From assembly GCA_015233895.1 (NCBI GenBank), contig JADFXG010000032.1:1968-38446 (forward strand): a stretch of 36,479 nt of DNA, written 5' to 3'. Shown piece after piece: positions 1,431 through 14,943 of this stretch. This DNA is from Nitrospirota bacterium (lineage in GTDB: Bacteria; Nitrospirota; Thermodesulfovibrionia; Thermodesulfovibrionales; Magnetobacteriaceae). The translations under genes were made by a program, and so were the position numbers. Below the pieces are notes generated by a model that was given only the letters and a program-made list of their open reading frames with translations, did no database searches and had not been told where the DNA came from. How positions within the stretch are numbered: the stretch's first letter is position 1; the number at the start of each line of letters is the position of its first letter.

Positions 1431-1431
1431 A
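1381..1431 (+). CDS. Possible 16-residue leader ORF ahead of the HMA-like gene
   Basis: ATG at 1381 opens a 16-codon frame (MDKRDEHKKNTYIGGK) whose TAA overlaps the ATG of the next gene as TAATG. This overlap is typical of translational coupling. There is only a weak AGAG ahead of it, so it may not be translated. The strong GGAGG at 1420-1424 lies inside it and serves the downstream gene. Confidence 0.25.
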   Translation: MDKRDEHKKNTYIGGK

Positions 1432-1802
1432 TGGAACACTACGTGCATCATGTAAGAGGAAGGTTAAGAATAAAACTTCCCGGGCTGATAAACAACCCCT
1501 CAGGATACCAAAAGGTACACGATATGGTTAAAGCGGATGGTTCTTTTGAAATATCCAAAGTAAACCCAATAACCGGCAGTGTGGTAATAAGCTATGACTC
1601 AGATAGAATAACCCATAAAGAAATCCTTGACAATTTGGCACAAATTGGCCTGCTTGATCCCTCAAAGATAATCAACAACGACCAATACGTTAAAAACGCT
1701 ATTTCAAAGTTTGGAAACACAATTAATAAGACACTTACCGGAGCGTTTCTGGGCAGCGCCTTAGATGGTACGCCGCTTTCGTTTCTTGCAGCGTTAATTT
1801 AG
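1431..1802 (+). CDS. HMA-like (HMA_2-type) small protein
   Basis: 123 residues. The N-terminal half is a ferredoxin-like HMA-type fold without the CxxC metal site of classical HMA domains. It carries H3, H6 and H7, then GRLRIK at residues 10-15, and a later strand ITGSVVISYDSD. The same signature occurs near the N-termini of the P-type ATPase at 3018-6059 and the HMA-like protein at 6080-6568, so the three belong to one family set. The C-terminus (residues ~95-123) is mildly hydrophobic and could touch the membrane. Start: GGAGG seven bases before ATG. It converges with metK, and the two stop codons sit in one hairpin. A role in metal delivery to, or organisation of, the ATPase is inference; no enzyme motif is present. 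Confidence 0.75.
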   Translation: MEHYVHHVRGRLRIKLPGLINNPSGYQKVHDMVKADGSFEISKVNPITGSVVISYDSDRITHKEILDNLAQIGLLDPSKIINNDQYVKNAISKFGNTINKTLTGAFLGSALDGTPLSFLAALI

Positions 1803-1828
1803 CATTGTTATTTTTTTTAACAATGCTA
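1800..1828. terminator. Perfect 11-bp hairpin containing the stop codons of two converging genes
   Basis: TAGCATTGTTA (1800-1810) pairs perfectly with TAACAATGCTA (1818-1828) across a seven-T loop. The left arm begins with the TAG of the HMA-like gene, and the right arm ends with the TAG of metK read on the other strand. It is likely a bidirectional terminator or end-protecting hairpin. No long U-tract follows on either side, so intrinsic termination may be weak. Confidence 0.55.
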
Positions 1829-3013
1829 TTTTAGTAAATGTACCTTATCGGTCCTCTCCCACGGGACGTCAAGGTCTGTTCTGCCCATGTGGCCAAATAC
1901 GGCCAGCTTTCTATAAAATCCGTTTTTGTGTTTAGCTGGAAGATGTCTGAGATTAAACTCCTTTAATATTGCAGCCAGTCTGAAATCAAAATGTTTCTTT
2001 ACTAAAGATGCAATTTCCGCATCCGGTATGATGCCTGTGCCGTATGTATCCACGTAAAGACTCACAGGTCTGGTAAGCCCTATACAATAACTAAGGTACA
2101 GCTCGCACTGCTTAGCGAGCCCTGAGGCTACAACATTTTTTGCCGCATACCGCGCTGCATAGGCTCCGATGCGGTCCATTCTCATAGGGTCTTTTCCGCT
2201 TAATGCAGCCCCTCCGCCTCTTGCATAAGCCCCGTATGTATCCATTGAGGTTTTTCTGCCTGTAAGACCGGAGTGCGTAGAAGGCCCCCCTATAATGGAT
2301 GGTCCGTCGGGATTTATAAAAATAAGGGTGTTAGCGTCAGGCTTTAATGATTCAGCCTCAAAAACTGGTTTTATGATTGCTTCATAAACGTCTGACCTCA
2401 ACTCATCAATCTCCGGGCCGCTATGTTTATTCTGACTAACCACTACGGTAATACTGTGCACCCTGTAGGGAGCGTTGTCTTTGTACTCGATTCCTACCTG
2501 TGTTTTACCATCGGGCGTAAGGTACGGAATGACCTTGTTGATGCGTGCAGATTTTATTTGTCTTGCTAATTTATGTGCAAACACTATAGGGCTTGGCATA
2601 AGTTCCGGACCCTCATCGCAGGCATAACCAAACACTGTTACCTGATGTTTTCCCGCAATTTTTTCTATTTCATCATCAGAGAGTGAGTTTTCGTCAAACT
2701 CCGTATAACGCTTGTTTGTCTCCTCTTTGAGGCTTGTAACAATGCTGCATGTTTTAGAGTTAAACTCTTTTGTATTATACCCTACCGTGTCTATCATATT
2801 CCTTGCAACATTGGTAAAATCCACGCTTGCCTTAGAATCAAACCTCGCCGCTATAAACACTATTGCAGTGGAAACGGCACACTCAGCCACAATGTTTGAA
2901 TACGGGTCTTGTTGAAGAAACTTATCCACGATTGCATCGCTGATTTGGTCACACAATTTATCGGGATGTCCCTCTGTTACGGATTCAGACGTAAATACGA
3001 AATCATTTTTCAT
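1826..3013 (-). CDS. metK: S-adenosylmethionine synthetase
   Basis: 395 residues, the normal size for MAT. It makes S-adenosylmethionine from methionine and ATP in the cytosol. The N-terminus has FTSESVTEGHPDKLCDQISDA (GHPDK at 15-19, ATP and metal binding). The centre has the glycine-rich ARGGGAALSGKDP loop followed by MDRIGAYAARY, and the tail has LDVPWER near the end. Start ATG with GGGGTGA seven bases upstream. It begins four bases after the stop of the P-type ATPase, so it is very likely the last gene of the metal operon. That is an unusual partner for metK. No SAM-binding riboswitch is visible. Identification is secure. Confidence 0.97.
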   Translation of the reverse strand: MKNDFVFTSESVTEGHPDKLCDQISDAIVDKFLQQDPYSNIVAECAVSTAIVFIAARFDSKASVDFTNVARNMIDTVGYNTKEFNSKTCSIVTSLKEETNKRYTEFDENSLSDDEIEKIAGKHQVTVFGYACDEGPELMPSPIVFAHKLARQIKSARINKVIPYLTPDGKTQVGIEYKDNAPYRVHSITVVVSQNKHSGPEIDELRSDVYEAIIKPVFEAESLKPDANTLIFINPDGPSIIGGPSTHSGLTGRKTSMDTYGAYARGGGAALSGKDPMRMDRIGAYAARYAAKNVVASGLAKQCELYLSYCIGLTRPVSLYVDTYGTGIIPDAEIASLVKKHFDFRLAAILKEFNLRHLPAKHKNGFYRKLAVFGHMGRTDLDVPWERTDKVHLLK

Positions 3014-3017
3014 TATT

Positions 3018-6000
3018 TCACCCCTTTTTAGTTTTTTCGTTAAACAAATATGGTACTACTGCGTTACCGGCTATGACCAGAGCGTCAGCAATGCCGATTG
3101 GCGTGATTCCCAGTACTTTTCTAAGTGGAGGCACTAAAACGCACAAAATCTGAGCGGCAAACGAGGCTGACATCGCAATGTCGAGGTATTTATTTCTTGA
3201 GAGCCGCTCTTTGTCAAAAATACTGATTGTATCAGAGCGGCAACTGAGAGTGTGAAGAAGCTGTCCTGAGGTTAGTGTCATAAAGGCCAAAGTGTTAGCC
3301 TTTGGAGAGGCGCCATAGCGCCACAAACCATAACCATAGGCAGCCAGCGCTCCAAGGCTTAACGCAGATGATTCCTTTAAGAGTTTTTTCATATCAGAGT
3401 TATTTAAAATATGTTCAGAGGGGTCCCGCGGCTGCTTTGACAGTATATCCGGCTCAGGCGGCTCAAGGGCAAGTGCTAACCCCGGGAAAATATCTGTGGC
3501 AAGATTTATCCAAAGCAGTTGCATAGTGTTTAACGGCTGCCCTAATCCCGTAGCAAGTGTGGTAAACATAACTATTATCTCGCTCATATTAGTGGCAAGC
3601 AGAAAGTGAATAGATTTCCGTATGTTTCCGTATATAGTCCGTCCCTCTTTGATAGCTGTAACCATAGTGCTAAGGTCATCGTTTTCTAAAATAACGTCAG
3701 CCACTTCTCTTGCCAAATCGGTGCCATCTTTGCCCATGGCAATCCCTATATCGGCCGCCTTAAGGGCAGGGCCGTCATTTATTCCATCCCCTGTCATTGC
3801 AACAACCCGTCCGCTTTGCTGAAGAGCCTGCACTATCTGGTATTTGTGGGCTGGAGTCACACGGGCAAAAACATCCACGCGTTCGCACAAGTTTTTTAAC
3901 ACATCCGGCTCCAGGTCCTTAAGATGCCGTGAGTCCACGATTTCAAGCTTTCCGTTTCTGCTGATTCCCAATTCCTTGCCTATGGAATATGCCGTCAGAC
4001 TCTGGTCACCGGTTATCATAATCGTGTCTATGCCCGCATTATGAAAGGTTTTGACTACATCCTTTACGCCATTCCTTATTGGGTCGATCATTCCTATAAG
4101 CCCTAGCCAAACCATATTGTAGTTTCTAAACACCGGATCAATGCTGTCTGTGTTGTACCAGGCTACGCCCAGAATTCTGAGAGCTTTACCGGCCATGTAT
4201 TCGTTTTCATTTTCTATAGCCTGCCGTAATTCATCATCTAAGGAGATTATCTGTCCATCTATCATTACCTTACTGCACATGGAAAGCACCTCTATGGGGC
4301 TGCCCTTTACGGCAACTGGTATTTTCTCGTCGTCCTCGTAAAGTTTTTTATGGCCGTTCAGCCTGTTTTGTGGCAGCTCGTGCATGGTTGACATACAGTT
4401 ACGAGCCTCCGAACGATGGCATACCTCAAGCATCGGGAACTCATTCCGTAACGATACGACGTCAATGTCAGCCAGTATGGCGGCTTTAACAAGAGCGCTT
4501 TCGGTAGGCGATCCGGTTAGTTTATATGTTCCGCCTGCATTTTCAACCGCAGTTTCGTTGCAAAGAGCGCAAACCTCCAAAAGCAGCCTGAGTTCATCCA
4601 TATCAGTGGCATTAATGTTTTGAGAATCGACAGTAAACCCTCTGTCTGATACTTTTATTCGTTTAAGGCCTGCGTGAATGGCCACAGTGGTCATTTTATT
4701 TAGTGTGATGGTTCCGGTCTTATCAAAACATATAGTCTGGCAACAGCCAAGTGTTTCCACGGCTGCAAGATTTCGTATAAGCACGCCATGTTGTTTTAAA
4801 CTCTTTATTCCCAGAGAAAGAGTGGTTGTTGCAACTGTGGGCAGTCCCTCAGGCACCGCAGCCACTGCTAATGATATGGCGGTGTTTAACATTCTTAAAA
4901 ACGCATAGCCGCGTAAAATTCCGATAACAAATACCAGCGCACACACCCCGCTGCTTATATATACCAGTTGATTTCCCAGTACGTTTAGTTGTTTTTCCAT
5001 CGGGGTTTCGGGGGATTCGGCACTGTCAACCATGGACTGAATCATGCCAAGCTCTGTGTGTCTGCCGGTAGCCGTTACAACGGCTATTGCCTGGCCTCCG
5101 GTAACTGTTGTTCCCATATAAGCCATGTTGTATCTGTCACCCAGAGGAATATCCTCGTAATCAATCACATCTGGTGTTTTGACAACCGGCATACTTTCTC
5201 CGGTCAGTGCCGATTCATCTATACTTAAATGTTTTGCCGTTAAAATCCTGGCATCGGCGGCAACAAAAGTGCCGGGCTGTAAAAGCAATATATCCCCCGG
5301 CACAACTTTCTCACAACTGATTGTAATGGTAACGCCCTCTCTGAGCACTGCCGCCTCCGGCATTACAAGGTTTTTCAGGGCGCTGATGGTGCGCTCCGCC
5401 TGACTTTCCGTGAGATACCCAATGACTGCATTTATACCGACAACAGACATTACAATTGCGGCATCAAATATCCCTCCAGTAGAAACTGAAATCACCGCCG
5501 CTGCACACAGTAAAAACACAGGGAGCGAATTCAACTGACCTAAGAAAATACTTAAAGCGCTGCGCTTTACACTATCCGGCAGCATATTAGGACCGTACTT
5601 AATGAGGCCCTCGCTTACTTGCAAATTAGAAAGTCCATGATGTAACGATGTATTGAAAAACTCTGTAACTTTTTCCACAGCTATTGTGTGCCAATGCTTT
5701 TTGGGTTGTTCAGTTAGCTCACTTGAAACTACTTTTTTTGAGGCCTTTTTTTTCTTTAACGGCAGCGGTTGTTTTGTTTTCAAATCCGGTATCCGGATGC
5801 CATACTCAGTGGCTAATCTCTCTACTAATTGTTGCAGAGTAGATAAATCACAAGAGACTTTATAGATAACAAGCACGTTTTCGGTTAGAGCACTTATGGT
5901 AACGCTAATGACCTCATCGTTTTGGGACAGGTTATTATAAAGATAGTCTTTAAACCCGCTAAAACGTGAAAGTCCTCTTATTTTAAATCTGATCCTGCCT

Positions 6001-6059
6001 TTGACACCTTTATGTAATACAGTCAAGACTTGTGGTTCTGTGTTCATTTGACCTGCCAT
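3018..6059 (-). CDS. P2-type cation-transporting ATPase with N-terminal HMA-like domain
   Basis: 1013 residues. Residues ~10-90 form an HMA-like domain with GRIRFK at 21-26 and no CxxC, followed by a lysine-rich linker (101-110). The P-type core follows: cation-ATPase N domain (~122-165), TGES actuator loop 286-289, PEGLP at 403-407 in the fourth core helix, phosphorylated Asp446 in DKTGTIT, then GDGINDGPALKAADIGIAMG and a Cation_ATPase_C-like membrane tail. PEGLP instead of CPC/SPC marks a P2 (Ca/Mn/monovalent-like) pump, so the HMA tag on such a core is notable. Substrate is not readable; Ca2+, Mn2+ or Fe2+ are possible. ATG at 6059 lacks a clear ribosome site; the second Met (6047) has AGGT four bases ahead and may be the real start. 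It lies between the HMA-like gene and metK in one operon. Confidence 0.92.
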   Translation of the reverse strand: MAGQMNTEPQVLTVLHKGVKGRIRFKIRGLSRFSGFKDYLYNNLSQNDEVISVTISALTENVLVIYKVSCDLSTLQQLVERLATEYGIRIPDLKTKQPLPLKKKKASKKVVSSELTEQPKKHWHTIAVEKVTEFFNTSLHHGLSNLQVSEGLIKYGPNMLPDSVKRSALSIFLGQLNSLPVFLLCAAAVISVSTGGIFDAAIVMSVVGINAVIGYLTESQAERTISALKNLVMPEAAVLREGVTITISCEKVVPGDILLLQPGTFVAADARILTAKHLSIDESALTGESMPVVKTPDVIDYEDIPLGDRYNMAYMGTTVTGGQAIAVVTATGRHTELGMIQSMVDSAESPETPMEKQLNVLGNQLVYISSGVCALVFVIGILRGYAFLRMLNTAISLAVAAVPEGLPTVATTTLSLGIKSLKQHGVLIRNLAAVETLGCCQTICFDKTGTITLNKMTTVAIHAGLKRIKVSDRGFTVDSQNINATDMDELRLLLEVCALCNETAVENAGGTYKLTGSPTESALVKAAILADIDVVSLRNEFPMLEVCHRSEARNCMSTMHELPQNRLNGHKKLYEDDEKIPVAVKGSPIEVLSMCSKVMIDGQIISLDDELRQAIENENEYMAGKALRILGVAWYNTDSIDPVFRNYNMVWLGLIGMIDPIRNGVKDVVKTFHNAGIDTIMITGDQSLTAYSIGKELGISRNGKLEIVDSRHLKDLEPDVLKNLCERVDVFARVTPAHKYQIVQALQQSGRVVAMTGDGINDGPALKAADIGIAMGKDGTDLAREVADVILENDDLSTMVTAIKEGRTIYGNIRKSIHFLLATNMSEIIVMFTTLATGLGQPLNTMQLLWINLATDIFPGLALALEPPEPDILSKQPRDPSEHILNNSDMKKLLKESSALSLGALAAYGYGLWRYGASPKANTLAFMTLTSGQLLHTLSCRSDTISIFDKERLSRNKYLDIAMSASFAAQILCVLVPPLRKVLGITPIGIADALVIAGNAVVPYLFNEKTKKG

Positions 6060-6079
6060 TAGTTATTTATGAAATGTTA

Positions 6080-6568
6080 TTAACTTTTAGGACGCTTTGA
6101 AAATAGACCAAAAGCGTACCAAAATGCCGTGTACCAGGGAGGCAGAACGAACCTGCCTTTTGCAAGCTGCATGATTCCTGTGGTAAAGAGACTCAGGAAG
6201 GCTAAATCGGCCATATCTATGTCTCCGTTTGTAGCGTTTTTTATTTTTGTACTGAAAGATTTCATTAAGGAGGCGACCTGATCAACTGGTTTCCCTACTG
6301 GTACCAGAGCTCCCTCGGTGTGGTCAAACAAGTTGTTTTTACGGCAGTAGTCATATATTTCCGATGGAGTGCCGCTGTGCCTTATAAAAACTCCTCCGGT
6401 CAGATGGTTAGCCTCAACATATATAACAGTCTTGTTTTTTTGCAACTCTTCTGTTACGCTGTTAAAGTATTTGGCATTACCTTTTCTGGATGGCACTTTT
6501 ATTCTCAACCTGTCCTGCAGATTGTGTGAGGTGTAAGCTTGTGGAAGCGCTTGACTTTGATTGTTCAT
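6080..6568 (-). CDS. HMA-like protein with hydrophobic C-terminus, partner of the P-type ATPase
   Basis: 162 residues from ATG 6568, chosen over an upstream GTG/ATG because GGAGG sits eight bases before it. It begins four bases after the DUF5132-like gene. Residues ~12-85 are HMA-like, with H15 and DRLRIK at 19-24, the counterpart of GRIRFK in the ATPase. Then come NHLTGGVFIRH (a strand like that of the 1431 gene) and a C-terminal part with LAFLSLFTTGIMQLAKG and PPWYTAFWYAFGLF, which look membrane-associated. No catalytic motif is present. Position between a small membrane protein and the pump suggests a membrane-bound accessory, metallochaperone or scaffold. That is inference from context. 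Confidence 0.75.
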   Translation of the reverse strand: MNNQSQALPQAYTSHNLQDRLRIKVPSRKGNAKYFNSVTEELQKNKTVIYVEANHLTGGVFIRHSGTPSEIYDYCRKNNLFDHTEGALVPVGKPVDQVASLMKSFSTKIKNATNGDIDMADLAFLSLFTTGIMQLAKGRFVLPPWYTAFWYAFGLFSKRPKS

Positions 6569-6572
6569 AACC

Positions 6573-6833
6573 TTAAACCTCCATATCTCCCTGTGATTCC
6601 TCAAGCTCTGCCTTTGCCTCTGCCACAATATCCTCGGTTACCTCACCGAACTCTGCCATTGCAACCTTAGCCTTAGCCGTTAGTACCAGTGCCCCCTTTA
6701 TTGCGGCTTTGGTAAGCGGCTTTACGACCGATGCCAGAGCGCCAATCAATGCAGGGCCAATTACCACAGCACCAAGCCCTATCGCAAAACTTTTCATTGT
6801 ATCACCCTTAAAGGCATCTTCAAAAAATCCCAT
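6573..6833 (-). CDS. Small DUF5132-like membrane protein
   Basis: 86 residues: short amphipathic start, one hydrophobic segment rich in Gly/Ala (residues ~15-38, GLGAVVIGPALIGALASVV), then a lysine-rich helix and an acidic tail (EDIVAEAKAELEESQGDMEV). This layout matches DUF5132 proteins, which I recall being found next to HMA-tagged P-type ATPases. It also resembles mycobacterial PacL (DUF1490) scaffold proteins, which cluster metal pumps. The family call is from memory of the pattern. It is the first gene of the operon, with a G-rich ribosome site 11 bases before ATG. A scaffold or regulatory subunit role for the pump is inference. Confidence 0.7.
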   Translation of the reverse strand: MGFFEDAFKGDTMKSFAIGLGAVVIGPALIGALASVVKPLTKAAIKGALVLTAKAKVAMAEFGEVTEDIVAEAKAELEESQGDMEV

Positions 6834-7013: not shown

Positions 7014-8693
7014 CTAAAGCAGTTCAGATATTTCCATATTACCGTTACCAGAAGACTTTATACTTTTATACTTGTCAACGAGTTGCAGGTATTTATTGTT
7101 ATCAGGCTCTATCTCATTTAATCGGGTAATGTATTTTTCACATTTGAATAAGTAGCGGTCATCTCTCCCATTCTTCTGTAAATATCCAATTATTGCCTTC
7201 AGTGCATTGAAATTTATAGTGAAATTTGAGGGCAAACCATCGGCAGCTTTCTCAAATAGTTCTATGGCTTCTGTGAGCATTCCCTTATCTATAAAATCAA
7301 CACCTTTGTTATTTATTCCGATTATTTCGGCTTTTGTCTCTGAAACAAAATCGGATCCCTCCTCCTCCATACCCAAATCCTTAAATGTGTCCTGTACAAC
7401 ACTTAGTATGTCGTTGTCAGAGAAGTTATTCCTTACTATATATTTCATTAATTCCATGCCCTTGCCTTTTTCATTGTTTTGAATAAAAGACTGAGCAATC
7501 TCAATAGCTAACTGGGGAGCAACTTTACCGCCAAGTTTTTTATAAATGTCTTCTGCCTCTTTTAAGGACGCCATAGATTTTTCACTTTCCTTAGTTTCTG
7601 CGTATATATGGCTCTTTAACAGTGTAGCCTGAAGCAAAACCTCGTTATTTTCAGCAAAGTCGTTCATTACATCTTTTACCATATCAAGGGCTTTAGCGGT
7701 TTCTTTCTTATTAACAAAAACCCTGGCAAGTTGCGTGTAATCGGAGGAGTCTTTGAAGATTGAGGTTTTTCCAAGTTTGATTGCATTTTTAAAGGATGAC
7801 TCTGCTGTGTTAAAGTCAGTGTTAGTAAAAGCGATGTTGCCAAGTGCCCTTTGCCTGAATATTGCTTTAGGTGATAAAGTTACAGCTTTTTGTAAAACCC
7901 CCTGGGCAGTGCTTTTCTCTCCTAATTCATCCAGAGTTTTAGCATACCAGTCATAAACGGGTATAAACTTATCGTTTTCATCAATAAGCGCTTTAAAAGT
8001 ATCTGCGGCATCTTGAAACCTCTTTGTATGGAAATAGATCTTTCCCATGTTAAACTGCGCCCACGGCAATTTGTACTTACTTAGCACCAATGAATACACA
8101 TCCTCTGCATTTTTATAATCGCCGTTTGTCATGTAAACTTCACCTTTTACCTTTAAAATATCAATGCGATAAGATGGCTTTTTCTGCAGTAAATCGTCAC
8201 ATAAGGCTATAGCCTCCGTGAAATTCTTACGCCTCATGACTGCGTCAATGTCTGCAAACAAATGTTTCTTCTCTTCAGTGGCCTTAATGCGCGCGACAAG
8301 TTCCTTAGTGGTAAATGGTTTTATAAGATATCCGTCCGGTTGGTAATCCATCACGCCCATAACCGAATTTATTGTGTTTTCAGCCGTTATCATCATAAAC
8401 ATTGTAGAATAACCAATTTTCTTTTTATATGCTAACTCTTCAAATATCTGATGGCCGTCCTTTTTGCCTTCTCCAAGGTTATAGTCGCAGAGGATTACAT
8501 CATATTGTTTAGTGGAAATCTTGGTTATTGCATCGTTTGCCTCCTCAGTAATATCGACCAATTTTGCGCCAAGAGAAAGAAGATTTCTTCTCAGGCTGTC
8601 TCTGAAGTCTTTGTAGTCGTCAACGATAAGGAATTTCTTGTCTTTTAGTACAGTCTCTACCGCCTGCTCGCGATTATACAGTGTTAGTGCTAT
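7014..8693 (-). CDS. Response regulator: receiver domain plus long TPR region (apparent ATA start)
   Basis: 559 residues if read from ATA at 8693. Residues ~20-135 are a complete CheY-like receiver: D25/D26 acidic pocket, phosphoacceptor D70 (LCDYNLG), T103 (MITAE) and K125 (LIKPF). The rest (~140-550) is helical TPR-type repeat (GEVYMTNGDYKNAEDVYSLVL, PWAQFNMGKIYFHTKRFQDAADTF). There is no DNA-binding or enzymatic output domain, so it probably signals by protein contact, as in TPR response regulators of chemotaxis or c-di-GMP circuits. The first ATG/GTG/TTG in frame is TTG 8561, which would destroy the receiver. AAAGGAGG sits six bases before the ATA, and the peptide from there (MALTLYNREQAVETVLKDKK) looks like a normal N-terminus. 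CTG at 8681 is an alternative. No paired kinase gene is adjacent. Confidence 0.85.
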   Translation of the reverse strand: MALTLYNREQAVETVLKDKKFLIVDDYKDFRDSLRRNLLSLGAKLVDITEEANDAITKISTKQYDVILCDYNLGEGKKDGHQIFEELAYKKKIGYSTMFMMITAENTINSVMGVMDYQPDGYLIKPFTTKELVARIKATEEKKHLFADIDAVMRRKNFTEAIALCDDLLQKKPSYRIDILKVKGEVYMTNGDYKNAEDVYSLVLSKYKLPWAQFNMGKIYFHTKRFQDAADTFKALIDENDKFIPVYDWYAKTLDELGEKSTAQGVLQKAVTLSPKAIFRQRALGNIAFTNTDFNTAESSFKNAIKLGKTSIFKDSSDYTQLARVFVNKKETAKALDMVKDVMNDFAENNEVLLQATLLKSHIYAETKESEKSMASLKEAEDIYKKLGGKVAPQLAIEIAQSFIQNNEKGKGMELMKYIVRNNFSDNDILSVVQDTFKDLGMEEEGSDFVSETKAEIIGINNKGVDFIDKGMLTEAIELFEKAADGLPSNFTINFNALKAIIGYLQKNGRDDRYLFKCEKYITRLNEIEPDNNKYLQLVDKYKSIKSSGNGNMEISELL

Positions 8694-8822
8694 CTCCGGC
8701 CTCCTTTCGTTCTCCTCTATTCCCTAATACTTCATAAACACTATTCGGTATTACAAACAAAAAACTTTATTTTCTAAAGAAAAAAGAGTCCGTCCGTGAA
8801 AAATCAAAAATTTAGCTTAGTT

Positions 8823-8838
8823 TGCTATAATACGTTTT
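8823..8838 (+). promoter_or_regulatory. Extended -10 promoter of pdxA
   Basis: TGCTATAAT (TG at 8823-8824, TATAAT at 8826-8831) is a perfect extended -10 element. The predicted start of transcription, about seven bases on, falls at the pdxA GTG (8839), with no ribosome site between. No good -35 is seen, as is usual for extended -10 promoters. Confidence 0.65.
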
Positions 8839-9840
8839 GTGTCAAGATTAATATTAATAACACAGGGTGATCCGGGAGGTATCGGGCCTGAGGCAGCGCT
8901 TAGGGCATATCTCACGTACAGGCCACAAAGGGCGGTGTTTGTCGGTGATATTAATGTCATTAAAGATGCCATGAGGCTTATCAACAACAGTACTCTCAGG
9001 ATAAACACAGTTGAAAATCCACTCGATGGTATTTTTGACGGTTCAACTCTAAACGTAGTAAATGTCACAGTTGCTGGACAGTACGAAAAGCGCAGAGCAA
9101 CCAAAGAGGGCGGCTTACTCAGCGCTCGGTGTATAGAAAAAGCAGTGGAATTAATTCTTAATGGAGAGGGTGAGGCTCTTGTCACAGCTCCGATTTCAAA
9201 AGAGGCGCTAAAACTTGCAGGCATACCTTATCCTGGCCACACTGAAATGCTTGCCGCTTTGACTGACACCGAAAACTTTGCCATGATGCTTGTTGGCGGC
9301 ACTCTTAGAGTGATGCTCGTTACCATCCATGAGGCGCTATCCAATGTGCCGCATCTCATTACAAAAGACAGGGTTGTTAAAACGCTCATTTTAGCTAACG
9401 CTGCAGCCTATATGCTTGGCATAGACACTCCTAAGATAGCCGTGTCGGCGCTAAACCCTCATGCCGGAGAGGCCGGTTTATTTGGCAGGGAGGAGATAGT
9501 GGAAATTGTACCGGCTATAGAGGAGGCGGCACGGATGGGTATTGCCGCAACCGGTCCTTTTCCGGCAGATACATTGTTTTATAAAGCTTACAGAGGACAG
9601 GTGGATATCGTGGTAGCAATGTATCACGATCAGGGGCTTATACCGCTAAAAATGGCAGCCTTTGAAAGCGGTGTTAACATCACAATAGGGCTACCCATCA
9701 TACGGACATCCCCTGATCACGGCACTGCCTACGACATTGCCTATAACTCAAAAAGTGCCGTCAATCCCCAAAGTATGTGCGAGGCTATGAGGCTTGCTGA
9801 AACTCTGAGGCCATATGTGCCAACATGCCGCTATGACTGA
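8839..9840 (+). CDS. pdxA: 4-hydroxythreonine-4-phosphate dehydrogenase
   Basis: 333 residues, normal for PdxA. The enzyme oxidises 4-phosphooxy-threonine with NAD in the DXP-dependent pyridoxal phosphate pathway. It has the N-terminal TQGDPGGIGPE signature (residues 8-18), the PYPGHTEML loop and the three expected metal-ligand histidines H164 (TIHEALS), H208 (LNPHAGE) and H263 (MYHDQG). TSPDHGTAYDIA lies near the C-terminus. The start is GTG 8839, because the signature begins only a few residues later and no start fits upstream. The -10 box is so close that the mRNA is probably leaderless. The 3' end overlaps the GtrA-like gene. Confidence 0.96.
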   Translation: MSRLILITQGDPGGIGPEAALRAYLTYRPQRAVFVGDINVIKDAMRLINNSTLRINTVENPLDGIFDGSTLNVVNVTVAGQYEKRRATKEGGLLSARCIEKAVELILNGEGEALVTAPISKEALKLAGIPYPGHTEMLAALTDTENFAMMLVGGTLRVMLVTIHEALSNVPHLITKDRVVKTLILANAAAYMLGIDTPKIAVSALNPHAGEAGLFGREEIVEIVPAIEEAARMGIAATGPFPADTLFYKAYRGQVDIVVAMYHDQGLIPLKMAAFESGVNITIGLPIIRTSPDHGTAYDIAYNSKSAVNPQSMCEAMRLAETLRPYVPTCRYD

Positions 9841-10288
9841 GATAAATTCTTATAGAAAGCAAACCATCAAACAGTTTGTCAGGTTTGCGCTTATAGGAGC
9901 CTTAAATACCATAGTTGATATGGCAATCCTCAATCTTGAAACCCTTCTGACAGGCCTTAAGACAGGCACGCCATTTGCCGTAGAAAAAGCAGTGTCGTTT
10001 CTTGTTGCCGTGATTTCTAGTTATTACCTTAATAAGAGATGGGCGTTTGAGTATAAATCTGAAAGAGGTAGGGTAGGGGGAAAATTCTCTCATTTTGTAG
10101 CCGTAAGTTTAATTGGGATGGTTGTTAATGTGGCATCGGCATCGTTTGTAGTAAATGTTGTGAGGCCATGGTTACATCTTACATGGATCGGGGATCAAAT
10201 CTGGGTCAACATTGGCTCACTTTGTGGAACAGCCTGCGGATTGCTCTTAAATTTTTTGGGTTACAAGTTTTTTGTGTTTAGATCTTAG
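9815..10288 (+). CDS. GtrA-family membrane protein
   Basis: 157 residues with four predicted membrane helices (around FALIGALNTIVDMAIL, VSFLVAVISSYYLN, FVAVSLIGMVVNVASASFVV and NIGSLCGTACGLLLNFLGYKFFVF). The pattern FxxxGxxNTxxD and the terminal NFLGYKFFVF are typical of GtrA, a family that helps flip undecaprenyl-linked sugars for surface glycans. ATG 9815 has GAGG four bases ahead and overlaps pdxA by 26 bases; ATG 9833 would overlap by 8. No glycosyltransferase partner is adjacent, although one lies at 24-25 kb. The specific substrate is not readable. Confidence 0.88.
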   Translation: MCQHAAMTEINSYRKQTIKQFVRFALIGALNTIVDMAILNLETLLTGLKTGTPFAVEKAVSFLVAVISSYYLNKRWAFEYKSERGRVGGKFSHFVAVSLIGMVVNVASASFVVNVVRPWLHLTWIGDQIWVNIGSLCGTACGLLLNFLGYKFFVFRS

Positions 10289-10312
10289 CTTCATATTTCA
10301 TTTAAATTTTGC

Positions 10313-10341
10313 TTGACAAGTTTAGAAATATGTGGTTAAAT
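10313..10341 (+). promoter_or_regulatory. Sigma70-like promoter of the protease-MORN unit
   Basis: Consensus -35 TTGACA (10313-10318), 17-base spacer, then TTAAAT (10336-10341). The next gene starts at 10466, giving a leader of roughly 115 bases whose content is unknown. Confidence 0.55.
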
Positions 10342-10465
10342 GTTGTCGGTTGTGTTCCATATGCCGTTGTGTAAATACATTAGTAATGTGAGACTTCGTT
10401 GTATATGTGTGAGGCGAGTTATAAAACTGGTTTATTAAATACAGTTTAAAGTTGTGGAGGTGCTT

Positions 10466-11152
10466 ATGTTTTTGAATGTAAAATACATGATGGTGTCTTT
10501 TGTCATGCTATGTTTGGTTCCATCCGTTGCATTTTCTGAGGTTACAATAGTAGATTTTCATGAAACATATGACGACAAAGTGCCTATATCAGGCTTAATC
10601 AGTGTAGGTGCTATGGTTGATGTGGATAACTCATTCTTTGACCCCCAATTTATAACTATAAAGATGCCTGAAACACAAAGTGCAAAGCTATGTATATCTA
10701 TAACCTCAAATGATGGACGCTATAGAGCTCAATATGAATATGATGTTAAGAATCAAAAAAGTGGCGCACTTACTTTGCCAACCAACACAAAGAAAAGCAG
10801 TGAACTAAAAAATTATAAAGATAAACAGGTAGTAATATTAGCTACACTTAATAAGACGTGTAAAGACAGTCCTGATAAGGTATTGTTTGCCAGTTGGAAA
10901 AAGACAATCGCTGGAAACTCAAATAAGTATTATGTTTACTTAAATTGGGCAAATAATGTATCTATTGTAATCAGTAATAATCCTAATGTGGATGTTGCAG
11001 TTTGCAAGAAAATTACTGATAAATCAATAGCTTATAATAACGAATGTTTACTGGATAATAAATACATGGGGGAAATCAATTTTGCTGTCAATAGATTTAC
11101 GGCAGCAAACGCGAAACTTCAGTTAATTCCATTACCATTGGTTTTACAGTAA
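10466..11152 (+). CDS. Secreted protein of unknown function
   Basis: 228 residues from ATG 10466; GGAGG five bases ahead favours it over GTG 10454. The N-terminus is a clear Sec signal peptide (MFLNVKYMMVSFVMLCLVPSVAFS, cut likely after AFS). The mature part is polar, Asn/Lys-rich and probably beta-rich. It has cysteines in KLCISI, KTCKDS, VAVCKKI and NECLL that could form disulfides. I do not recognise a family. It is first in a unit of three with an integral membrane protein and a secreted protease-MORN protein, two bases before the next gene. The unit is visibly richer in A+T than its neighbours, hinting at acquisition. Confidence 0.7.
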   Translation: MFLNVKYMMVSFVMLCLVPSVAFSEVTIVDFHETYDDKVPISGLISVGAMVDVDNSFFDPQFITIKMPETQSAKLCISITSNDGRYRAQYEYDVKNQKSGALTLPTNTKKSSELKNYKDKQVVILATLNKTCKDSPDKVLFASWKKTIAGNSNKYYVYLNWANNVSIVISNNPNVDVAVCKKITDKSIAYNNECLLDNKYMGEINFAVNRFTAANAKLQLIPLPLVLQ

Positions 11153-11154
11153 TT

Positions 11155-11991
11155 ATGAAAGCAAAACTCATAGGTTTTATAGTTATTCTTGCTGTCCCAG
11201 TAATATTTGTTCTATTAATGAACGTGACAACAACATTTAACATTACAGCACAGGTTGAGCGTATTGAATTTGATTCAGATGAAAAAAATCCAATAGAATG
11301 GGAATTACGCAAAGCTATCATTACTGAAAATGCGGATGAATCGTCAAAAAGAGTATTTACAGGAACTCTTACCATATCTGCGTCTTCTCATGTTGTTGTG
11401 GAACGTGTATCAAATGGACCTTTAACAATCAGTATTGATTCATTGCAAGACAATAAACAGGTAGGAACATATCTGAGCGAGAACAATTCATCCAGTATTC
11501 AAACAAGCAAAAAAATTGGAATAACGATTGATAATACAACAAGCTTTGTTAATAAAGGTCAGACAGTATTGCTGCCACTAATCGGGAAAGATGTCACTCT
11601 TGGCATTGTTGTAAATGATAAGCTGTGTGGGAGCGCAGCCATATTACGTTCCGGCAAGGTTACAATGCTCGGAAAGACAATTTTGGGTGATGTTTATAAA
11701 GTAATGGAGAGTACGTTAGATGCCGGAGATCAGATTACAATGAAAGGACAAGAGTCCTTGTCGTACGGCTTTGTTTTACTTGATGAGAGACCAGCATTGA
11801 CAGCCTCTTATAGGACTATCGGTAAATATGCATTGCTATCTCATACAGGCTTTAACTCTTATAGAATGTCAGCCTCGTGGTTAGACTTGCTTATGAAGAA
11901 TACGTTTGTAACGGCTTTATATACGATTTTAGGTGCAATATACAGTATTTATAAATTATTTTCCAAAAAGGAGAAAACATTGTATGAGTAA
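11155..11991 (+). CDS. Membrane protein with large extracytoplasmic domain, unknown function
   Basis: 278 residues. One hydrophobic helix sits at the start (residues ~4-26, LIGFIVILAVPVIFVLLMNV) and another near the end (~248-268, FVTALYTILGAIYSIYKLF). Between them lies a ~220-residue polar, beta-rich region, probably outside the cytoplasm, with repeated alternating segments such as FTGTLTISASSHVVVERV. No recognised domain or catalytic motif. The layout of two end helices around an extracytoplasmic domain recalls adaptor or GIDE-like membrane proteins, but no homology is claimed. Its stop overlaps the start of the protease-MORN gene by 8 bases (ATGAGTAA), implying coupled translation. Confidence 0.65.
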   Translation: MKAKLIGFIVILAVPVIFVLLMNVTTTFNITAQVERIEFDSDEKNPIEWELRKAIITENADESSKRVFTGTLTISASSHVVVERVSNGPLTISIDSLQDNKQVGTYLSENNSSSIQTSKKIGITIDNTTSFVNKGQTVLLPLIGKDVTLGIVVNDKLCGSAAILRSGKVTMLGKTILGDVYKVMESTLDAGDQITMKGQESLSYGFVLLDERPALTASYRTIGKYALLSHTGFNSYRMSASWLDLLMKNTFVTALYTILGAIYSIYKLFSKKEKTLYE

Positions 11992-13315
11992 TAAGCTTTT
12001 TATAATTTGTCTTGTGTGTTTTTTGTTTAGCGTCTCAAATTCATTTGCAGAAGAGGTCTTTATTAAGGCAAGTAATGACTATGGAAGGGGTATTACTAAA
12101 AGAGTTGGTAAAGATTGCTTTGTAATAACCGCTAAACATGTAGTGGAGAATGCTAACCCACCGGTAACCATATATTTTGAAGGTAACAGACATGCCGAGG
12201 GTACTCCATCCTCATTTGCAGCTACTGATTTAGCAGTTATTAAATTAGATAACTATAAAATAAATTGCTCAGATTATAGTATTGTTGAGAATATCAATAA
12301 TTTGGTAAAAAGAATGGTTTCAGGACAGTTAATAATTGCTGAGGAGGATGGCGCAACGAATAGAAAAACTGTAAAAATTGTTGGGACAGATGCTACAGAT
12401 ACATTCAAAATTAAATCTGAAACGGCAACTTTTATTTTACAAAAGGGTCATAGTGGAAGTGCCTTATATCTTGACGATAAAGGCACTCTCATTTTAGCTG
12501 GTATCTTACTATCTGTTAATAGTAAAGATAATATTGGAACTGTATATAAAATAAATTATATAAATGCAACTGTAAACCTTTATTTTGGAACCTATTATAG
12601 CAACACCATAACTACCATTTCACCTGAAACAGTGAAACCAACTGCAATGCCGACTCATATTTATGAAGGAAAAAGAGGGTGTATAAAGGGGGATTGCAGA
12701 AATGGTTACGGCATTCTAGTTTATGACGATAAATCACGGTATGAGGGTGAGTTTAAAAACGGAGGACTTAACGGTCAGGGAACCCTTGCCTACGCAAATG
12801 GCAATAAATATGTTGGAGTGTTTAGAGACGGACAAGTAAATGGACAGGGAAACTATACCTACGCAAACGGAGACAAGTACGTGGGACAGTTTAAAGACGG
12901 TAAAAGTGAGGGCGATGGAGTTTATACCTTTGGTAACGGCAACAAGTATGAAGGACATTTTAAAGATGCTAAATCAAATGGGTGGGGAGTCTTTACCTAC
13001 ACAAACGGCGACAGGTATGCAGGGCAGTTTAAGGATGGGAAAGGTGATGGAGATGGGCACTATACCTACGCAGACGGAACCAGGTTTGCCGGGCTGTTTA
13101 AAGACGGCAAAAAAAATGGGCATGGAGTTTATACATATGCAGACGGCAGCAAGTATGAAGGGGAATTTAAAGACAATAAAAAAGACGGTCGAGGAATATT
13201 CACCTATCCTGATGGCTCAAAGATAGACACGTCATTTGCAAACGATAAACCTGAGGAAAACTACCTCGTAACTATCGGAGAGAGAAAGGGAAAAAAAGAT
13301 AATAATTTCGAATAG
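11984..13315 (+). CDS. Secreted trypsin-like serine protease fused to MORN repeats
   Basis: 443 residues from ATG 11984, with AAGGAG ahead; this overlaps the previous stop. A Sec signal peptide covers ~1-22 (LFIICLVCFLFSVSNSFA). Residues ~24-205 form a trypsin-like (S1/S46-like) domain with a full triad: H52 in VITAKHVVE, D82 in ATDLAVIKL and S157 in KGHSGSALY. After a Pro/Thr linker (~210-228) come a degenerate MORN unit (CIKGDCRNGYG) and seven 23-residue MORN repeats from residue 253 (YEGEFKNGGLNGQG type). MORN repeats usually bind lipid or protein surfaces, so a tethered envelope protease is plausible. The fusion is unusual. Substrate and pathway are unknown. Coupling to the upstream membrane protein suggests they act together. 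Confidence 0.85.
   Translation: MSNKLFIICLVCFLFSVSNSFAEEVFIKASNDYGRGITKRVGKDCFVITAKHVVENANPPVTIYFEGNRHAEGTPSSFAATDLAVIKLDNYKINCSDYSIVENINNLVKRMVSGQLIIAEEDGATNRKTVKIVGTDATDTFKIKSETATFILQKGHSGSALYLDDKGTLILAGILLSVNSKDNIGTVYKINYINATVNLYFGTYYSNTITTISPETVKPTAMPTHIYEGKRGCIKGDCRNGYGILVYDDKSRYEGEFKNGGLNGQGTLAYANGNKYVGVFRDGQVNGQGNYTYANGDKYVGQFKDGKSEGDGVYTFGNGNKYEGHFKDAKSNGWGVFTYTNGDRYAGQFKDGKGDGDGHYTYADGTRFAGLFKDGKKNGHGVYTYADGSKYEGEFKDNKKDGRGIFTYPDGSKIDTSFANDKPEENYLVTIGERKGKKDNNFE
12740..13222 (+). repeat. Seven tandem 69-bp MORN-coding repeats
   Basis: Seven in-frame 69-base units, each coding Y/F-x-G-x-F-(K/R)-(D/N)-x4-G-x-G-x(3)-Y/F-x-(N/D)-G-x-(K/R). They are diverged at DNA level but share runs such as tttaaagacgg and acctacgcaaacgg. 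Copy number could vary by recombination. Confidence 0.8.
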
Positions 13316-13348
13316 ATGTGATTGTTCAGAAGCATGAATAATTTTCAA

Positions 13349-14086
13349 TCACGCACCGGCATTTTCAGCAGGCGCAGGTGCCTCAAGTCCCAGCTCTTTT
13401 AGTACTTTTAGCGCATCAGTCCAGACAACCGTTTTAGCTGACGGATTTCTCAGTAAATAGGACGGATGATATGTGGGCATTAGCTTGATTCCCTTGTAGT
13501 CCTTGAATTCGCCGCGCAGACGCGTTATTGGTCTATCAGTTGCTAAAATTGCCTTAGTTGCGACCGTTCCCAATGTTACTATGACCTCAGGCGTTATGGA
13601 TGCAATCTGACTTTTCAGAAAACCTATACACGCTTTGACCTCATCCTGCTCAGGCTCTCTGTTTCCGGGCGGACGGCATTTCACCACGTTTGCTATGAAA
13701 ACATCCTCACGCTTAAGCCCCATTTTATTTATAAGGCTGGTTAGAAGTTTGCCGGCGCGTCCAACAAATGGCCGCCCCTGCTCATCCTCATCTGCTCCAG
13801 GGCCCTCTCCTATAAACATCAGCCTTGCCTTTGCGTCACCCTCACCAAACACAATGTTCTTTCTCGTTTTGTGGAGCTTACATCGCTTGCAATTGCCTAT
13901 CTCGTGTCTTATCGCCTGAAGCGTCATGACCTCATTGCTGTTATCTATAGGTTCAGTGACAGAGTCAGGTTCAATTTGGGATGAAAATATTTCGTCTTTT
14001 CCCGAAATCGGTAAAAACTCAAACCCAATTGCCTCATATACTTTTAGAAATTCCACCATAGTTGCCGCAAATTCATTATTTCTCAT
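13349..14086 (-). CDS. Uracil-DNA glycosylase, family 4/5 (Fe-S type)
   Basis: 245 residues from ATG 14086 (AAAGG about eight bases ahead; a GTG at 14107 inside nadK is the alternative). It removes uracil from DNA in base-excision repair. Motif GEGPGADEDEQGRPFVG at 94-110 binds and activates at uracil. The four cluster cysteines are C66 and C69 (CKRC), C137 (KCRPPGNREP) and C153 (KACIGFL), the spacing of [4Fe-4S] family 4 enzymes. TYHPSYLLRN near the end is the leucine-loop/His motif. The N-terminal ~55 residues are an extra, low-conservation extension often seen in these proteins. It is last in a run of overlapping genes after nadK. Confidence 0.93.
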   Translation of the reverse strand: MRNNEFAATMVEFLKVYEAIGFEFLPISGKDEIFSSQIEPDSVTEPIDNSNEVMTLQAIRHEIGNCKRCKLHKTRKNIVFGEGDAKARLMFIGEGPGADEDEQGRPFVGRAGKLLTSLINKMGLKREDVFIANVVKCRPPGNREPEQDEVKACIGFLKSQIASITPEVIVTLGTVATKAILATDRPITRLRGEFKDYKGIKLMPTYHPSYLLRNPSAKTVVWTDALKVLKELGLEAPAPAENAGA

Positions 14087-14091
14087 ACCTG

Positions 14092-14943
14092 TTACCTTTC
14101 GCCCCACTTCAGTTTTTCCCTGAGAATCTGAAAATAGTCCCTCTCACAGGGTATCAAAAGTCTTGTCATGTGCGCTGAGCGTTTGACGCTTACCACGTCT
14201 TTTTCCTTTAAATGCTGTCCAAGCTGCCCGTCAAGAGTTAGATACACATCCTCACTACCAGATCCGACCACTATTTCTATAGACATGTCATCGTTAACCA
14301 CTATTGGCCGGTTTGTTAACGTGTGTGAACAGATTGGCGTAACAACGAAGCAGTGCAGGGTTGGATAGAGTATTGGGCCTCCTGCCGATAAAGAATAAGC
14401 CGTTGAGCCTGTTGGTGAAGACACAATTAATCCATCCGCTCTGAATGTGGTTACATAAGCACCGTCTATAAACATCTCAAGGTCAAATATTCTTGCCAGA
14501 GCCCCTTTTGTCACAACCACGTCGTTTAACACCGTATAAGTTGCAAGCGTTTTGCCATCCCTTATGACTGAGGCATTTAACATAATCCTGTCTTCTGACG
14601 CACACTTACCGTTTATTACCTTCTCTATGACATCAAATACCTCACCAATGCTTACCTCTGTGATAAACCCCAGTCCGCCCAGATTTATGCCAAAAATCGG
14701 AATGTTCTTTCCCGCCACAAGCCGCGAGGCAGCAAGCATGGTGCCGTCTCCGCCAAGCACCATTACCATATCACAATGCTCTGAGATTTCCTCTTGCGCT
14801 ACCCCGGTCTCTCCTATCTCCTGTGCCGAGTACGAGTCTATACAAACCTTTGTTGTCCTTTCCCTTAACCACGGAACAAGTTTTCTTAAAAGCTCAATGG
14901 CCTCTTTCTTGCCGCGTTTACAAATTATTCCAACTCTGTTCAT
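14092..14943 (-). CDS. nadK: NAD kinase
   Basis: 283 residues, the usual size. It phosphorylates NAD to NADP. GGDGT at 64-68 is the phosphate-binding signature. Further on are GINLGGLGFITE, the VLNDVVVTKG strand and DGLIVSSPTGSTAYSLSAGGPI, which line the NAD site. Start ATG 14943, inside the end of tsaE (26-base overlap), and the stop nearly touches the UDG start, so expression is coupled along the operon. Identification is secure. Confidence 0.97.
   Translation of the reverse strand: MNRVGIICKRGKKEAIELLRKLVPWLRERTTKVCIDSYSAQEIGETGVAQEEISEHCDMVMVLGGDGTMLAASRLVAGKNIPIFGINLGGLGFITEVSIGEVFDVIEKVINGKCASEDRIMLNASVIRDGKTLATYTVLNDVVVTKGALARIFDLEMFIDGAYVTTFRADGLIVSSPTGSTAYSLSAGGPILYPTLHCFVVTPICSHTLTNRPIVVNDDMSIEIVVGSGSEDVYLTLDGQLGQHLKEKDVVSVKRSAHMTRLLIPCERDYFQILREKLKWGER

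Follow-up and report, generated by a model that had tools for sequence, protein, structure and literature searches.

The window analyzed here, a 36,479-nucleotide stretch of DNA from a Nitrospirota bacterium (contig JADFXG010000032.1, positions 1,968 to 38,446 of the forward strand), carries three same-strand open reading frames (ORFs), A, B and C in that order, which span positions 10466-13315. C encodes a secreted-looking trypsin-like protease joined to a tail of MORN repeats. Sequence comparisons indicate that this trio is not a local invention; it is one copy of an undescribed system of three to four genes, in which distant bacteria keep A, B and the protease as neighbors, some of them with D as a fourth gene. 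We estimate a probability of about 0.55 that the trio represents an envelope protease system that moves horizontally and had so far escaped annotation, in which a periplasmic protease, tethered by B and bearing an exchangeable recognition tail, would act with or on A.

A three-gene unit shared with plasmids of distant bacteria

Relatives of the trio were searched by tblastn in 72,556 plasmid records. B matched Vibrio tubiashii (E 1e-9), and A matched V. tubiashii, Vibrio sp. 09022, Rhizobium sp. Pop5 and two R. leguminosarum records; when the loci found with the A or B queries were inspected, the remaining two parts lay adjacent. Later searches brought in units of Pseudoalteromonas, Tistrella, Cereibacter, Bosea and Paracoccus, and A, B and the protease were found together on plasmids of Vibrio, Pseudoalteromonas, Rhizobium, Bosea, Tistrella, Cereibacter and Paracoccus, with a copy carried by Cereibacter sphaeroides 2.4.1. 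The distant homologues were reached from A, from B and from the protease. Among 17 plasmid records with a match to A or the protease, both were detected by tblastn in 14 and seen on inspection in Pop5 and one Paracoccus, which leaves one record, a second Paracoccus, outside the 11 of the 17 that were opened. Pairwise BLASTP comparisons of the window with V. tubiashii gave E values of 2e-24 for A, 4e-17 for B and 9e-22 for the protease. The genes of the unit are annotated on the plasmids as hypothetical proteins, with the exception of a fusion in Pop5, annotated as an ankyrin-repeat protein. These plasmid searches overturned the suggestion, drawn from 395 genomes of the phylum (A in 2, B in 3 and the protease in 4, with weak HtrA-like matches set aside), that the trio occurs in a single genus only. 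Two scans of genome contigs by short patterns gave no confirmed relative. A phage origin of the unit was rejected: A of the window and A of V. tubiashii had no match in 50,697 phage records, and six scans of viral contigs by short peptide patterns, which distant relatives can escape, revealed no relatives.

We tested 11 units, two from the genus (those of the window and of a second genome, G002) and nine from plasmids, with profiles built without the target's own lineage and searched against all frames of the target locus. At loci found by an A, B or protease query, the presence of the query gene was given by construction; that of the others was not. A was recovered in the expected frame in 11 of 11 units (E 1.5e-33 to 9.5e-13), as was the protease (E 4e-26 to 7e-11), and B in 9 of 11 (E 4e-27 to 2e-4), the B genes of Bosea and Paracoccus being assigned from position and layout, not by profile. 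The sole extra profile match for A, B or C was the second frame of a broken A in Bosea (E 0.012). D encodes a protein of about 190-235 residues; some copies have a signal-like segment, and one matches HEAT weakly. It was recovered in all six units having it, with no match at the other five loci, the window included. Gene order differs among the units (A-B-C, C-A-B, or C divergent from A-B), yet the parts stay adjacent. The pairwise divergences of A, B and C correlate with r of 0.83-0.94 over the 11 units and of 0.42-0.68 over nine, two near relatives being left out, a correlation that is partly due to the common descent of the hosts. Between the window's genome and G002, the ratio of replacement to silent change (dN/dS, NG86) was about 0.23 for A, 0.40 for B and 0.45 for the protease domain, and all three genes are under purifying selection. 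Since silent change exceeds replacement change in A, B and the protease domain between two species, the trio is more than a product of chance. A previous reading of the DNA from its letters, hereafter the sequence-only reading, had taken the trio as one unit of no described pathway, and this view held up: the genes stood together, with an intact catalytic triad, in all 11 units (a protease of a third genome, described below, being the exception), and no such pathway was found in the libraries and literature searched. The literature, with most subscription journals and bioRxiv preprints outside the scope of the search, gave no description of a protease-MORN protein or of this gene combination. 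As a separate observation, two D-like genes stand in tandem beside the unit of Paracoccus (L131, 7037-8265).

A had no match in Pfam, NCBIfam or PADLOC at E<=1, nor in PHROGs at E<=0.001, and B matched no Pfam or PADLOC family. Among the members of A and B scanned, no curated cut-off was reached in Pfam or NCBIfam and no family appeared within the limits used for PADLOC and PHROGs; profile searches of solved structures returned nothing credible for either. The protease domain of C scored 20.9 bits with Trypsin_2 of Pfam, below the cut-off of 27.6, and a profile of the protease family retrieved DegP, DegQ and HtrA as its best relatives among solved structures, with the DegP-like 5y28 on top (E 7.8e-6). 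All 11 units have an intact His-Asp-Ser triad (the Asp column was read in an alignment of 11 rows), and two cysteines of the protease are invariant in all 11 aligned sequences. S157, already proposed as the catalytic residue, belongs to this triad (H52-D82-S157), which is conserved in relatives. The protease's only PADLOC match was LmuA (E 5e-10, 37.2 bits, 138 residues, 146 of 425 profile positions), and the protease of Vibrio 09022 matched HamA weakly (E 4e-4); PADLOC gave nothing for A, B, D or most of the proteases tested.

The inserted trio and its exchangeable tail

In the window's genome (G000, 3.71 Mb), the trio lies in an A+T-rich insert of 3.05 kb (10292-13341, no strand assigned), delimited by a synteny breakpoint against three genomes of the same genus (G001, G002 and G003). 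DNA identity with these genomes ends at 10280-10291 on the left and restarts at 13342-13404 on the right. The ORFs flanking the trio (157 and 252 amino acids), which we take to be GtrA-like and uracil-DNA-glycosylase-like, were seen adjacent in none of the three genomes (0/3). Because identity breaks on both sides and the flanking genes were not seen as neighbors in the relatives, we regard the trio as an insert at this breakpoint. G002 has the unit elsewhere in its genome (L008), with A and B 64% and 61% identical to those of the window, and there a single 717-residue frame (7702-9855) joins B and the protease to an FGE-sulfatase domain (E 2.1e-25). The TIG-domain gene downstream in G002 had no relative among 11 other genomes. 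In G003, a contig of 3052 bases (C158, L010) is 99.93% identical to the window; it probably strayed into that assembly and was dropped as an independent copy, since G003 keeps its own diverged copy (91% identical) of the trio's neighboring gene.

All three genes and their parts lie on the plus strand. Gene A (10466-11152, 228 amino acids) has an N-terminal signal-like segment, a conserved S-x-D-G-x-Y-x-A region and two invariant cysteines near its C-terminus. Gene B (11155-11991, 278 amino acids) has helices at about residues 2-31 and 250-277, flanking an outer domain of about 215 residues. In gene C (11984-13315, 443 amino acids), the trypsin-like domain occupies about residues 23-202 (12050-12589), with the catalytic codons of H52 at 12137-12139, D82 at 12227-12229 and S157 at 12452-12454, and the C-terminal tail (12680-13312) consists of a CxxGDCxNG cap, seven MORN repeats and a TYPDGS...NDKP end. 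The A+T richness and coupled starts described from the letters were borne out by a GC content of 0.33-0.375 in the trio against 0.41-0.48 in five neighboring genes, by a gap of 2 nucleotides between A and B and by an overlap of 8 nucleotides between B and C; likewise, the seven repeats on a secreted-looking protease were recovered with PF02493 (E 5.3e-36, 120.8 bits against a cut-off of 22.5, seven stretches). The consensus promoter of the same reading stood in part: TTGACA at 10313-10318 is a perfect -35 element, and CTTGACA is kept upstream of A in G002, but the hexamer 17 nucleotides downstream, TTAAAT, is a weak -10 element, and none of the 13 sites that a promoter scan returned, against 13.4 expected by chance, falls in this region. 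A GGAGG ribosome-binding site precedes A at 10455-10459 and aligns with a GGAGG in G002. Elsewhere in the window, near its start (1431-6628), small proteins are grouped with one large ORF, which is presumably P-type ATPase-like.

After the constant protease domain, the tail differs by lineage. It is MORN in the window, FGE-sulfatase in G002 (the fused domain mentioned above), ankyrin in Pop5 (E 3e-10), repeated segments in two Vibrio units and another, unassigned C-terminal domain in the remaining units, which may have a discoidin-like fold. The MORN tail is 54% identical to a stand-alone secreted MORN protein of the genus (G000, contig C13), with the same cap and end. Its composition-standardized GC content at third codon positions (0.395) is similar to the values for four host genes (0.407) and for the stand-alone MORN gene (0.451); that of the protease, 0.212-0.216, is unlike the host, and tail and protease differ with a Mantel-Haenszel z of 3.6, a contrast not seen between the FGE tail of G002 and its protease (z 1.3). 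The MORN tail thus probably came by grafting from a secreted MORN protein already resident, or from one closely related to it, as the shared cap and end, the 54% identity and the host-like codons suggest.

MORN repeats scored above the cut-off in 17 of the 19 genomes searched. Relatives of the same family (L012, L013) have frames of 867-896 residues with long MORN arrays and a start that we take to be J-domain-like. On plasmid p4 of Azospirillum argentinense (L121, 3318-5486), a gene annotated as caspase family has a MORN stretch and lies beside a type VI locus, near genes for TssA, a serine/threonine kinase and a phosphatase.

Proposed mechanism and competing explanations

In the mechanism we propose, B would be an inner-membrane protein with a large periplasmic domain and would hold the trypsin-like protease in that compartment. 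The parts are predicted from their sequences to be exported. Through recognition or docking, the tail would determine the binding target of the complex or its location. A, an exported soluble protein of small size with conserved cysteines, may be the protease's regulator or its substrate. In the window's genome, the MORN tail, probably derived from a secreted MORN protein of the same bacterial family, would have given an old protease a new target. A hydrophobic segment is present at both ends of B in most units. B and the protease form a single frame in 2 of the 11 units, those of G002 and Rhizobium Pop5 (L123, 7708-10020), and in these fusions hydropathy shows three hydrophobic segments, so ordered that the protease would come to lie outside. 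Since B is fused to the protease in these two units, B is the likelier anchor, and the proposal that MORN is the key to function or a surface tether found no support: MORN is one of several exchangeable tails. Tethering by MORN is further weakened by a study that re-evaluates MORN repeats, describes them as modules for protein-protein interaction and finds that a general role in lipid binding lacks direct evidence (PMC7725318).

Several observations weigh against this mechanism or against the unity of the system. The location and topology of the parts rest on hydropathy; the annotated B of Tistrella begins without the first hydrophobic segment, and for the window's B the second one appears only in the alignment and the model. 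AlphaFold single-sequence models were too poor to use, with a mean predicted local distance difference test score (pLDDT) of 41 for A and 37 for B. The lineage-excluded profiles missed B of Bosea and Paracoccus. A is frameshifted in Bosea and split over two frames (L128, about 5932-6640), the annotated gene beginning past the break, and matches in two to three pieces in three of seven Cereibacter plasmids (e.g., L133, 4171-5614); because A is broken in these plasmids, the system appears dispensable or decaying there. G001 has only a distant protease relative, 41% identical, which stands without A or B and has lost the catalytic His (to Asp) and Ser (to Ile). Finally, the tree joins the MORN tail to the MORN proteins of the genus only weakly (78/83).

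Of the functions offered by the sequence-only reading, envelope quality control and defence are both possible. A role in defence or conflict, with the tail as sensor of an envelope invader (phage, predator or type VI attack) and the protease responding by destroying a target or by turning A into a toxic effector, would account for the patchy, plasmid-borne, insert-like distribution. In conflict systems tails change likewise. The LmuA and HamA matches point the same way, as do genes close to two units: a match to a type IV restriction enzyme (E 3e-205) in Pseudoalteromonas, and an HNH nuclease together with a DrmC-like protein in Vibrio 09022. Trypsin-like proteases have been acquired by several antiphage systems and are fused there to LmuA and HamA; the proteases of our units look secreted, however, and the main text of that study names no signal peptide or periplasm (PMC12799240). 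Moreover, PADLOC was silent on A, B, D and most of the proteases, and the phage records and viral contigs searched gave no match. The neighborhood links concern few loci and are without a control comparison, and for this reason defence is kept as a rival, conceivable but doubtful. Among other neighbors of the units, a type VI cluster occurs at one and a caspase-like gene at one. In V. tubiashii (L120), the gene of an MBL-fold hydrolase (7949-9229) follows the unit, and 4 kb on there is a type VI secretion cluster (11695-14639).

Dedicated processing, in which A or a surface protein is matured by the protease and the tail serves just to position the enzyme, without sensing, agrees with the presence of A beside the protease in 11 of 11 units and with their correlated divergence; a constant substrate would leave the replacement of tails by unrelated domains unexplained, and we judge this explanation rather unlikely. 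Housekeeping quality control in the manner of DegS/HtrA draws on the DegP, DegQ and HtrA relatives of the protease profile (E 8e-6 and weaker). It appears improbable, as no PDZ domain was found in the 11 proteases scanned, the window's protease scored 15.3 bits against a DegS cut-off of 422.95, and A, present in 2 of 395 genomes of the phylum and found elsewhere on plasmids, is too patchy for a housekeeping gene. That the trio is a decaying insert without function, as the G001 pseudoenzyme and the broken A of Bosea and some Cereibacter might suggest, is very improbable in view of the purifying selection on the three genes between G000 and G002 and the intact triad in 11 of 11 units. We therefore favor the horizontally moving envelope protease system at the probability given above. 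A wider proposal is decidedly more tentative: A, B and the protease, with or without D, may constitute a new, widely transferred class of envelope surveillance, with B as platform, A as secreted partner and a protease with a domain-exchanged recognition tail, serving at the cell surface against invaders or competitors.

Comparison with known systems

Most known systems that sense trouble in the envelope are housekeeping. The system described here would be accessory and plasmid-moving, with two partner families that no library used recognizes and a tail changed by domain replacement. It would turn the "hypothetical proteins" of seven proteobacterial genera into one testable system, and provides a concrete gene set, including the Cereibacter sphaeroides 2.4.1 copy, for asking what is sensed and what is cut.

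Several known proteins resemble single parts of the unit. The stand-alone secreted MORN proteins of the genus share cap, repeats and end with C, without a protease or an A-B unit. The caspase-annotated protein of Azospirillum joins a protease-class domain to MORN, as C does; with no A or B identified there, it is a parallel only. Among antiphage proteins, LmuA of Lamassu is resembled by the window's protease domain and HamA of Hachiman weakly by that of Vibrio 09022, but the unit protease is instead exported, to judge from its sequence, partnered by A and B, and not fused to a known defence enzyme. The flanking 157- and 252-residue ORFs are too small for LmuB, the SMC-like ATPase of Lamassu, which was not searched for elsewhere in the genome. 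In the antiphage nuclease-protease pair, the MBL nuclease is encoded directly upstream of the protease (PMC12799240), whereas here B lies upstream of C, and the only MBL-fold match was that of V. tubiashii, downstream of its unit.

A further likeness is to the periplasmic serine proteases DegS/HtrA, which likewise have a trypsin-like domain with the His-Asp-Ser triad (11/11 in our units), are exported, as predicted here by sequence, and carry a domain C-terminal to the protease. That domain is PDZ in DegS/HtrA and was absent from the unit proteases in Pfam scans (11/11 units), and the window's protease falls far short of the DegS cut-off. The unit also differs in its two partner genes of no known family, in tails unrelated between lineages and in being plasmid-borne. 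Taken together, these comparisons indicate that the functional kind, an anchored envelope serine protease, is already known, and that the gene system fits no known family tested.

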